The notes under the pieces: model-generated
Seen by the model: only the letters and a program-made list of their open reading frames with translations
What the model was told of the DNA's origin: nothing
The model's database searches: none
From: Halomontanus rarus
Lineage (GTDB): Archaea > Halobacteriota > Halobacteria > Halobacteriales > Natrialbaceae
Assembly (NCBI RefSeq): GCF_017357405.1
Contig: NZ_CP071597.1
Coordinates: forward strand, 496,001-560,000
Direction of reading: 5' to 3'
DNA: 64,000 nt
Translations under genes and position numbers: made by a program
Part shown: piece by piece, positions 38,245 through 40,884 of the stretch
How the letters are laid out: every line of letters starts with the position of its first letter
Numbering within the stretch: the first letter of the stretch is position 1

Positions 38245-39471
38245 TCACTCCTCCATCGACAATCGCGAATCCCGAAGCAAGACCTTCTTGACGATCTCCG
38301 GGTCCTCGAGCAGCCGATGCTTCGCGTGGGCCCCGCGCCCGCGTCCGCGCCCCTCGCGCTCGGACTGGATCACGTTCAGGAAGTTCTGCTCCTGGAGGAT
38401 CTCCTGAACTCGCCGTTCCGAGAGGACGTCGAGCTCGAGCTGGCCGGTGATCTGTTTGTACTGACTGTAGATGATCTTGGTCGGAAACTCGTCTTCGGTG
38501 CTGTTCTCGGTCAGAAGCGTCAGGGCGTAGAGGATGGCTTTGGCCTGCTGGGGCGAGCCCTCGATCAGTTCGCTGAACCGGTCGGCCTCGGTCTTCTCCT
38601 TGGCCGCCCTGACGTGTTCTTCCGTTACGCGCGCATCGTTTCGCTTCTTGGCGAGTCGGCCCGCGTTTCGCAGGATGTCGATCGCCTTCCGGGCGTCGCC
38701 GTGTTCCTGTGCCGCGAGCGCCGCCGTCAGCGGGATCACCTCGTCGGTGATCACCTCCTCGTGGAAGGCGTCGCGACGTTTGTTGAGAATGTCGATCAAC
38801 TGGTTGGCGTCGTAGGGCGGAAAGACGAGTTCGTCCCGCGAGAGGCTCGACTTCACCCGCTCGGAGAGGTTGTCCGGGAAGTCGATCTTGTTCGAGATGC
38901 CGACGATGCCGATACTCGAGTCGGAGATGCGACGATTCTCGCCCGCCCGCGAGAGTTTTCGGAGGACTTCGTCGTCCTCGAGCATGTCGATCTCGTCCAA
39001 GATGACGATCGTGACGTCGGTACAGTGGTCGATGACGTCCCAGAGGCGCTTGTAGTAGTCGCCGGTCCCGAGTCCGCGATCGGGTACCGTGACGCCGCTG
39101 CGTTCGGGTTCGTTGACGACCTGGGCGACGGTCTTGACGATCGACGCCTCGGTGTTCTGTTCGCCGCAGTCGATGAACGCGTACTTGACGTTGATGTCGT
39201 CTCGCTCCGCCTCGGAGATCACGCGCTGGGTGATCGACCGCGAGATGAGCGACTTTCCGGTTCCCGTTTTGCCGAAGATAAAGAGGTGAGACGGCTTGCT
39301 CCCGAAGATCGCGGGGTTGAGGGCGTCGGCGACGCGCAACATCTGATCGTCGCGGCCGACGATCCGGTCCGGCCCGGGCAGGTGCGTGATCTCGAGCAAC
39401 CGCTCGTCGGCGAAGATCGGATCGTCGTAGCGAAAGAGCGGATCGCGTCCGTCTGACTCGTCGGAAGCCAT
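38245..39471 (-). CDS. orc1: Orc1/Cdc6 replication initiator
   Basis: 408 residues. The AAA+ domain has Walker A GKTGTGKS (67-74) and Walker B IVILDEIDM (155-163), with EVITDEVIPLTAALAAQEHGDARKAIDILRNAG as sensor 2/lid. The C-terminal winged helix (LTENSTEDEFPTKIIYSQYKQITGQLELDVLSERRVQEILQEQNFLNVIQSEREGRGRGRGAHAKH) binds origin recognition boxes. The gene is directly next to a group of ORB repeats, so it is the initiator paired with this origin. A half-ORB-like sequence lies just upstream of its own TATA box, which suggests self-regulation. Haloarchaea have many paralogs; this one resembles the main chromosomal type. Confidence 0.95.
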   Translation of the reverse strand: MASDESDGRDPLFRYDDPIFADERLLEITHLPGPDRIVGRDDQMLRVADALNPAIFGSKPSHLFIFGKTGTGKSLISRSITQRVISEAERDDINVKYAFIDCGEQNTEASIVKTVAQVVNEPERSGVTVPDRGLGTGDYYKRLWDVIDHCTDVTIVILDEIDMLEDDEVLRKLSRAGENRRISDSSIGIVGISNKIDFPDNLSERVKSSLSRDELVFPPYDANQLIDILNKRRDAFHEEVITDEVIPLTAALAAQEHGDARKAIDILRNAGRLAKKRNDARVTEEHVRAAKEKTEADRFSELIEGSPQQAKAILYALTLLTENSTEDEFPTKIIYSQYKQITGQLELDVLSERRVQEILQEQNFLNVIQSEREGRGRGRGAHAKHRLLEDPEIVKKVLLRDSRLSMEE

Positions 39472-39638: not shown

Positions 39639-39660
39639 ACACCCCCCTCGCGGATGTAAC
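39639..39660 (-). repeat. Origin recognition box (reverse)
   Basis: The minus strand begins gttacatccgcgagg and ends in a G-string followed by tgt. It is a full 22-bp ORB. Confidence 0.88.
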
Positions 39661-39741: not shown

Positions 39742-39763
39742 ACACCACCGTCGCGGATGTAAC
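39742..39763 (-). repeat. Origin recognition box (reverse)
   Basis: The minus strand begins gttacatccgcgacgg and ends tggtgt. It is a full ORB in the same orientation as the one at 39639. Confidence 0.88.
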
Positions 39764-39823: not shown

Positions 39824-39845
39824 TTTACAAACGCGACGGTGGTGT
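39824..39845 (+). repeat. Origin recognition box (forward)
   Basis: The sequence begins tttacaaacgcgacgg and ends tggtgt, identical in the core to the reverse copy at 39742. The pair is inverted about 60 bp apart. Confidence 0.88.
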
Positions 39846-39877: not shown

Positions 39878-39899
39878 GTTACAAACGCGAAGGGGGTGT
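39878..39899 (+). repeat. Origin recognition box (forward)
   Basis: The sequence begins gttacaaacgcgaagg and ends gggtgt. Confidence 0.88.
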
Positions 39900-40115
39900 C
39901 CGTGTACTCGAACGTAGACTTGCAGTTCTCTGCAGATACTGCAACGTCTCTCGAGGCGTGGAATCACAACGCAGAGATCCACACAAGCGGTACGAACGAT
40001 GCAGCCACGGCTCGGGATCGAGAACCAATCGACGACGGTCTCGAGGAGACCTCCTGAACCGAGCCGAGTCGCTGTAATCGATCGATCGGAAGACGACTAC
40101 TCGAGGGCCAGATTC

Positions 40116-40162
40116 ACTAGTCTAGTTCTAGTAACTAGACTAGTAACTAACAACTAGACTAG
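40116..40162. repeat. CTAG-rich inverted/direct repeats in the origin
   Basis: A perfect 12-bp inverted repeat (actagtctagtt ... aactagactagt, 40116-40127 and 40133-40144) is followed by a third copy of aactagactag at 40152-40162. Seven CTAG sites fall within 46 bp (40117, 40122, 40128, 40135, 40140, 40154, 40159). The stretch is AT-richer than its surroundings and may be the unwinding element. Confidence 0.85.
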
Positions 40163-40373
40163 CTCAACTAACACAACACTCTCAACGGGCATCCCCAACA
40201 ACACTCTCGAAGACATCCACAGTGGAATCATCGAGTACACGATCGCTCGAGAGCTCGATACGTGACGACGGACACCGTCCCTGATACTCTCGACGTCTCG
40301 GAATCGTCGATGGGGAGGGACTCGAATTATCCACGACGATCACCTCACGACGACCTCCGATTTCGACCCGTCT

Positions 40374-40425: not shown

Positions 40426-40884
40426 ATGTTCGACCGCGTTCGCGCCCGACTCGCACCCGACACACACAGCGACCCGGTCGTCGGACTTTTCGTCGACGGG
40501 CCGAACGTGCTTCGCGACGAGTTCGACGTCGATCTGGACGATCTCCGCGAGGTCGCCACCGATCTGGGCCAGCTCGGAGTCACCCGTCTCTACCTCAACG
40601 AACACGCCACGCCGGGACTGATCCAGGCCGCCGAAGCCCGCGGGTTCGAAGTCGTCGTCACCAGCGGCGACGTCGACGTCAAACTCGCCGTCGACGCGAC
40701 CGCCCTCGTCGCCGACGGTTCGCTGGACACCCTCGCAGTCGCCTCCCGCGATACGGACTTCAAGCCGGTCCTCGAGTTCGCCGGGACCCGGGGCATCAAG
40801 ACGGTCGCGATCGCGCCCGGTTCTTACGGACGCTCGGACGCGCTTCGCAACGCCGCCGACGAGGCGATGACGCTGGGTCCGTGA
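40426..40884 (+). CDS. NYN-domain (PIN-like) nuclease-family protein
   Basis: 152 residues. The PIN-like fold shows its acidic residues in VGLFVDGPNVLRDEF, VVVTSGDVDVKLAVDATALVADG and LAVASRDTDFKPVLEFAGTRGIKTVAIAPG. This matches the LabA/NYN group (TIGR00288-type in archaea), predicted metal-dependent RNases. The gene starts directly at the edge of the origin, and such a protein is often found beside the haloarchaeal orc1-linked origin. A role in replication is not shown. Confidence 0.8.
   Translation: MFDRVRARLAPDTHSDPVVGLFVDGPNVLRDEFDVDLDDLREVATDLGQLGVTRLYLNEHATPGLIQAAEARGFEVVVTSGDVDVKLAVDATALVADGSLDTLAVASRDTDFKPVLEFAGTRGIKTVAIAPGSYGRSDALRNAADEAMTLGP

Follow-up and report, generated by a model that had tools for sequence, protein, structure and literature searches.

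We describe a conserved array of CTAG sites in the intergenic DNA upstream of an orc1/cdc6 initiator gene of Halomontanus rarus, within a window of 64,000 nucleotides (the whole stretch of DNA analysed), and establish that the CTAGs of this origin element are selected as CTAGs. We suggest that the best reading of these observations is methylation-coupled control of the origin acting through the conserved array, to which, unproven as it is, we give a probability of roughly 0.5. The element is real and conserved and is described here at base level; elements of its kind have already been reported (Blow et al. 2016).

The window's orc1 gene (38245–39471, minus strand) encodes a protein of 408 aa whose Cdc6 lid and C-terminal winged-helix domains match Cdc6_lid and Cdc6_C above the Pfam cut-offs, and whose best solved-structure matches are the Cdc6 homologues 2v1u and 2qby. 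An intergenic region of 954 bp separates it from a divergent gene (40426–40884, plus strand) that forms the far border and, according to its domain match, encodes an NYN-domain protein of 152 aa. ORB-like repeats occur within this region, with four (39639–39660) and two (39742–39763) mismatches to the 22-bp reference in the inverted, minus-strand copies and one (39824–39845) and two (39878–39899, the outermost) in the plus-strand copies. The array occupies 40117–40162, where a direct count gives CTAG starts at 40117, 40122, 40128, 40135, 40140, 40154 and 40159, in agreement with the seven sites in 46 bp of a preliminary description of this DNA. The 12-bp inverted repeat and additional copy noted there are likewise present: a perfect inverted repeat spans 40116–40144 (arms 40116–40127 and 40133–40144, 100% complementary), with two CTAGs in each arm and one more in or around the 5-bp spacer, and a third copy of the AACTAGACTAG unit is found on the plus strand at 40152–40162. 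The 12-bp inverted repeat as such was not seen by eye in the arrays of relatives.

Within the orc1 intergenic region, the array occupies the part richest in A and T. It is 217 bp past the end of the outermost ORB (39899) and about 645–650 bp from orc1, from which the ORB repeats separate it; its distance to the NYN gene is 263 bp. It had been described as lying next to the ORB repeats; the sites do not stand among them. By nearest-neighbour energy, only one other 60-bp site in the window is less stable than the 60 bp at 40112–40171 (33% GC, the lowest of the intergenic region), which we regard as a candidate, and probable, unwinding element at which the duplex would open. Like other archaeal unwinding elements, this stretch is the least stable AT-rich DNA beside initiator sites; unlike them, it is not enclosed by inverted ORBs, as every ORB found is on the orc1 side of the array and none (with up to five mismatches) was detected on the orc1-distal side within the 2.5 kb scanned upstream of orc1. 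Haloarchaeal origins adjacent to orc/cdc6 genes, as outlined in PMC3528665, likewise bring together orc1, inverted ORBs and AT-rich DNA within a single intergenic region, whereas here the AT-rich element is orc1-distal, not ORB-enclosed and filled with CTAGs. The orc1-linked origin is presumably active; the cumulative GC skew of the window does not change course at the array and was not informative as a marker of the start point.

CTAG is rare in the remainder of the window, where 27 copies were counted (34 in total with the seven of the array), within the two to three dozen previously estimated by eye. The accompanying expectation of about 250 by chance was too high because equal base use had been assumed; dinucleotide-preserving shuffles of the window give 85.6 ± 8.7, so that the depletion is approximately 2.5-fold rather than 8-fold. 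Pattern searches, from which all genome-wide counts derive, located CTAG triples with gaps of at most 20 at six distinct places in the 5.17-Mb genome. The window array is the densest of them, which answers the concern that equally dense clusters might occur elsewhere. Three of the six lie 0.6–1.1 kb upstream of an orc gene; the second densest place has 6 CTAG in 87 bp (C1:2350141–2350227, with an orc match from 2351331), and another is upstream of an orc gene on the minus strand (C2:733421–733456, orc at 731147–732358). The genome carries nine orc-like genes (ten rows of matches, two being one reading frame). At the second and third own origins (L275 and L272) the 100 bp of lowest GC within the 1.5 kb upstream again contain CTAGs (5 and 4, respectively), and in three further own origins no 100 bp hold more than one CTAG.

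A scan of genomes with the Orc1 protein yielded 57 loci, 48 at 85–99% identity and 9 at 63–74%, and we define the close group as the 49 loci with at least 85% Orc1 identity, window included. Natronoglomus belongs to Natrialbaceae according to the taxonomy dump, and the remaining close-group loci, apart from Natronoglomus and two MAGs so titled, we take to be Natrialbaceae as well. Within 1.5 kb upstream of orc1, 45/49 close-group loci have at least three CTAG per 100 bp, compared with 0/224 other 1.5-kb tiles of the same 49 loci, and the tie of the cluster to the origin and its conservation in close relatives are thereby strongly supported. The position is also maintained, since of the 321 close-group CTAGs up to 1 kb from the outermost ORB, 250 fall 100–300 bp past it. 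The exceptions are L016 and L052, with a maximum of 1 CTAG per 100 bp, and L053 and L054, with a maximum of 2. At 500–1000 bp upstream of orc1, L016 and L052 have no strongly AT-rich element, and their ORB-adjacent DNA appears by eye to be coding-like, as if the far half of the origin had been lost through rearrangement.

Beyond the close Orc1 group the array is only occasional, and a strong, regular array was seen only within it. At 63–74% identity, one of nine loci has at least three CTAG per 100 bp (L063, one of five Halorussus), and this number is reached by 4/13 loci at 62–75% identity, a set that overlaps the previous one in at least two genomes. Four of five plasmid loci with the window's Orc1 lineage also reach 3 CTAG per 100 bp (largest counts: L279, 3; L282, 4; L280, 1; L281, 3; L283, 3), and two of these four are Natrialbaceae with Orc1 identities of 84.6% and 88.6%. 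Among 20 orc-upstream regions of Natrialbaceae besides the window's, six reach 3 CTAG per 100 bp and two have at least three CTAG in the GC-minimum piece.

An explanation that would require no recognition of CTAG is that the array is a plain duplex-unwinding element in which CTAG is a by-product of AT-richness and the weak TA step. The low stability of the site within the window is consistent with this, as is the GC content of the 45 loci with an array, which is 36% at the array centre and 53–63% more than 80 bp away. We therefore consider 49 GC-minimum 100-bp pieces, picked from a region fixed by the ORBs and not by CTAG. CTAG is their commonest 4-mer (220 in 4,900 bases), present at least once in 43/49 pieces and at least three times in 41/49, whereas AT-rich pieces elsewhere in the same loci, which are less AT-rich (44.8% GC versus 39.2% GC), hold only 19 in 13,800 bases and orc1 coding DNA 2 in 58,800 bases. 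Dinucleotide shuffles of the GC-minimum pieces give 72.1 ± 7.3 CTAG (largest of 300: 93), a 3.05-fold excess, while the easier-melting TATA (40 versus 66.3) and TTAA (8 versus 20.6) are below their shuffle expectation, as are ATAT (21 versus 31.5) and GTAC (27 versus 38.1), and AGCT is slightly above (38 versus 29.3). The ratio of CTAG to a second-order Markov expectation is 1.43, that expectation itself containing much of the signal. Since nearest-neighbour energy is set by dinucleotides, which the shuffles keep, melting ease alone cannot yield the excess, and a plain unwinding element is unlikely. The preliminary description had offered methylation or an unwinding element; array and AT-rich unwinding element are both in place at one site, the one inside the other, yet the CTAG excess is greater than selection for melting explains. 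It is very improbable that the sites reflect relaxed avoidance or mutational bias, whereby CTAG is purged from coding DNA and drifts free in AT-rich non-coding DNA. Such a process accords with the window-wide depletion of CTAG and the non-coding location of the array but would restore the expected number at most, and it is contradicted because the excess is three-fold and absent from other AT-rich pieces.

In particular, the CTAG words are retained while the surrounding sequence turns over. L014, whose Orc1 is 99% identical to that of the window, matches the window at 50% identity on the AT side and at 87% over the ORB array, and despite this divergence the window and L014 have seven and six CTAGs. 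In alignments of 20 close pairs, 150/218 CTAG 4-mers and 735/2183 other 4-mers of the cluster are identical, a comparison that favours CTAG somewhat, as repeated words can inter-align, and in which within-group pairs are not independent. From one CTAG start to the next the distance is 4 to 48 bp (mode 5), with no clear helical phase. Retention amid turnover together with variable spacing is as expected if site number counts, and the number of CTAG sites seems more important than their exact spacing. As a separate feature, 45 loci (the window and members of L014–L070) have a T-rich, pyrimidine-rich flank on the orc1-distal side, 20–60 bp from the array centre and ahead of or overlapping the array edge (purine fraction 0.40–0.45 and AT skew −0.25 to −0.29 on the orc1-oriented strand). 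This flank could mark the opening strand; the skew shift across the array in these loci is confounded by neighbouring genes.

A role of the CTAGs in transcription, as methylation-sensitive elements in the promoter of orc1 or the divergent gene, we consider quite improbable. In a Haloferax strain, the DNA immediately ahead of transcription starts is enriched in CTAG (PMC11001535), but the present array is some 650 bp from orc1, across the ORBs, and 263 bp from the NYN gene, and it is kept beside other neighbours. Of the 57 relatives, L014 alone has the NYN gene next to orc1, and the gene is consequently not part of the conserved unit; for the same reason it was dropped as the border defining the intergenic region in relatives.

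The best PF01555 protein of the genome (C1:3740803–3741855) is 49% identical to the pFZ1 methyltransferase over 331 aligned positions, with strong conservation between the motifs SPPY and GTGTT. The pFZ1 methyltransferase, whose gene adjoins an MjaI-family restriction gene, is presumably the CTAG enzyme M.MthZI. No MjaI-type nuclease was found within 10.5 kb around the own methyltransferase, and on homology the genome probably encodes a CTAG m4C methyltransferase that is an orphan within the 10.5 kb searched. MthZI is CTAG-recognising, with a plasmid-encoded methyltransferase gene, according to a reference title in PMC6471742. Within the order, enzyme matches occur in 229/243 genomes at E ≤ 0.001 and in 222/243 at E < 1e-90; 20 of the 21 genomes outside the latter threshold belong to one family (f3), 12 of those to one genus. 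This distribution agrees with the published one, in which the CTAG enzyme is rare or absent in Halorubrum and Haloquadratum (PMC10609329). CTAG was reported to be modified at 97.0% and 98.7% in strains of Natrinema versiforme and N. pallidum (PMC6696651), and the array is present in different strains of these two species (L032 and L023). Among the methyltransferases of haloarchaea the CTAG enzyme is one of the most conserved, and its function was called open in surveys of 2019 and 2023 (PMC6471742; PMC10609329).

We suggest that the seven CTAGs may be a conserved functional component of this orc1-linked origin, forming a target-site array inside an easily opened AT-rich element beside the Orc1-binding ORBs. 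Its sites would be methylated by the cell's own m4C methyltransferase and would be briefly hemimethylated after fork passage, and this state might be read by the opening machinery or another protein so as to time the re-opening of the origin. Whereas the conservation, specific enrichment, position and turnover of the sites are properties of the genomes compared, the methylation and its reading are what we infer. More tentatively, it is possible that in Natrialbaceae the unwinding element is itself a methylation array and that m4C gates origin re-opening, which, if true, would be an archaeal licensing switch with a role like that of Dam/SeqA, built at the unwinding element and not at the initiator boxes. 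We know of no protein that reads CTAG methylation. As with GATC, Dam and SeqA at E. coli oriC (PMC5867850), a palindromic tetranucleotide that would be the target of an orphan methyltransferase is clustered at the origin; in contrast, the enzyme is here of m4C type on CTAG and not m6A on GATC, and CTAG is rare in this genome. In H. volcanii only one origin has a high CTAG density, and a strain without methylation (several genes deleted) was described as having no growth defect (Ouellette et al. 2018, PMC5867850), which counts against such control. A weaker melting of m4C DNA was considered as the mechanism and dropped, as a destabilisation by N4-methylcytidine was not evident in the reports covered by PMC4477647.

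An argument against methylation-coupled control is that the enzyme is near-universal in the order (222/243) and a consistent array is found only in the close Orc1 group; moreover, L016 lacks the array at this origin although its genome encodes the enzyme (L086, 81% identical). Since the window's Orc1 lineage was found in only 13/80 genomes of f3 and other families, the association of array and enzyme was examined on all orc genes of those genomes, comparing 21 lacking the enzyme (20 of f3, one of f4) with 21 enzyme-bearing genomes of f3. 'Lacking' here denotes no match (14) or a weak match (7, best E = 5.4e-25), and two genomes at E = 4.8e-92 and 4.4e-99 were counted as enzyme-bearing. CTAG clusters at most 1 kb upstream of an orc gene occur in at least 4/21 genomes without and at least 7/21 with the enzyme (Fisher p = 0.48), and account for at least 4/24 and at least 9/42 of the cluster places, respectively, the clusters and orc distances having been merged by eye. 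Three of the four orc-upstream clusters in enzyme-lacking genomes are on contigs of 114–431 kb.

The same comparison was made on regions, using full-length orc matches ranked 1 to 66 per list, which gave 65 regions per group after one gene without upstream DNA and one with an overlapping upstream region were left out; in each group 18 of the 21 genomes are represented. Two regions span only 1,001 and 681 bases, and that of L256, with the enzyme, extends nearer to its gene than the rest. CTAG in the GC-minimum pieces numbers 32 without the enzyme (22.2 ± 4.3 expected, inside the range of 300 shuffles) and 50 with it (28.1 ± 4.7 expected, above all 300 shuffles). At least three CTAG per 100 bp are reached in 6/65 regions without and 12/65 with the enzyme (Fisher p = 0.20; Mann–Whitney on the largest counts, 65 versus 65 regions, p = 0.24), and a sample of 60 regions per group, not strictly ordered by E-value, gave 31 versus 21.1 expected without and 46 versus 25.6 with (p = 0.26). 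The correlation of enzyme and array in f3 thus has the published direction, with a small difference that is not significant. TCGA was about twice its shuffle number in the GC-minimum pieces of the 65 enzyme-bearing f3 regions (L198–L257 and L290–L294; 51 versus 27.7) and was not raised in the 65 enzyme-lacking ones (28 versus 29.7).

Clusters upstream of orc genes in at least 4/21 genomes without the methyltransferase are in keeping with the main rival of methylation-coupled control, in which a methylation-blind DNA-binding protein reads CTAG and helps to load or release the MCM helicase, methylation being incidental. Such a protein would equally account for the CTAG excess over dinucleotide shuffles in the AT element and for the retention of CTAGs between closely related loci, and it has a precedent in UBP, which acts at ucm inside the Sulfolobus unwinding element (PMC12141716). 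Like the array, ucm is short and lies within the AT-rich element of an Orc1 origin in archaea; it is placed between inverted ORBs, however, whereas the array is outside the ORBs and is a repeated palindrome (PMC12141716). Considering that no fixed longer motif or spacing accompanies the CTAGs (4 to 48 bp, mode 5), we hold a methylation-blind reader to be a doubtful, if serious, alternative.

CTAG clusters upstream of haloarchaeal orc1/cdc6 genes, with a proposed role in replication control, were described by Blow et al. (2016, PMC4752239), whose text prints CATG and whose figure legend has CTAG, and were restated in PMC10609329. The present array resembles those clusters in motif, in its location in non-coding DNA upstream of orc1/cdc6, in its recurrence at orthologous places of several organisms, and in belonging to a genome with several orc genes and a CTAG orphan methyltransferase predicted by homology. 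The density plots of Blow et al. use 500-bp windows, whereas we locate each site to the base, within the AT element and outside the ORBs, and add the CTAG excess over dinucleotide expectation and the retention amid turnover. They further report that clusters correlate with presence of the methyltransferase, a tendency that has the same direction here and is not significant in the one family tested. Among literature titles and abstract openings, we found none describing this base-level arrangement. The locus offers a small, sharp target, a 46-bp array whose CTAGs could be removed at unchanged predicted melting energy, and vectors built on the Natrinema J7 origin are available (PMC5350488). If methylation-coupled control is true, DNA methylation would control replication initiation in archaea; if false, the array would point to an origin factor that reads CTAG.

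Finally, eight complete Natrialbaceae genomes scanned for CTAG clusters with gaps of at most 14 gave a mixed outcome. G016 and G040 each have a single cluster, which is orc-upstream, and in G243 (the genome of L016) one of two is, on a second replicon. G093 (three places) and G106 (two places) have one each that may be orc-upstream across the record start (in G106 at about 1.8 kb if the record is circular), the others not being so placed. None of seven clusters in G070 and not the single one in G236 is orc-upstream, and G076 has no cluster. An identical 22-mer with three CTAGs recurs in G070 in either orientation (C1:583610, 732756, 1194852, 1235992 and 3004975, with a near variant at C1:3703654) and is probably part of a mobile element. 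Tandem repeats with one CTAG per unit, located away from listed orc genes, occur at G061:C1:1668012–1668207 (24-bp unit) and G188:C11:370965–371088 (15-bp unit). Near-identical 29-bp CTAG clusters are present at G157:C3:95224–95252, 749 bp upstream of an orc gene, and G071:C8:30888–30916, in genomes of families f3 and f9, and probably represent a transferred plasmid origin.
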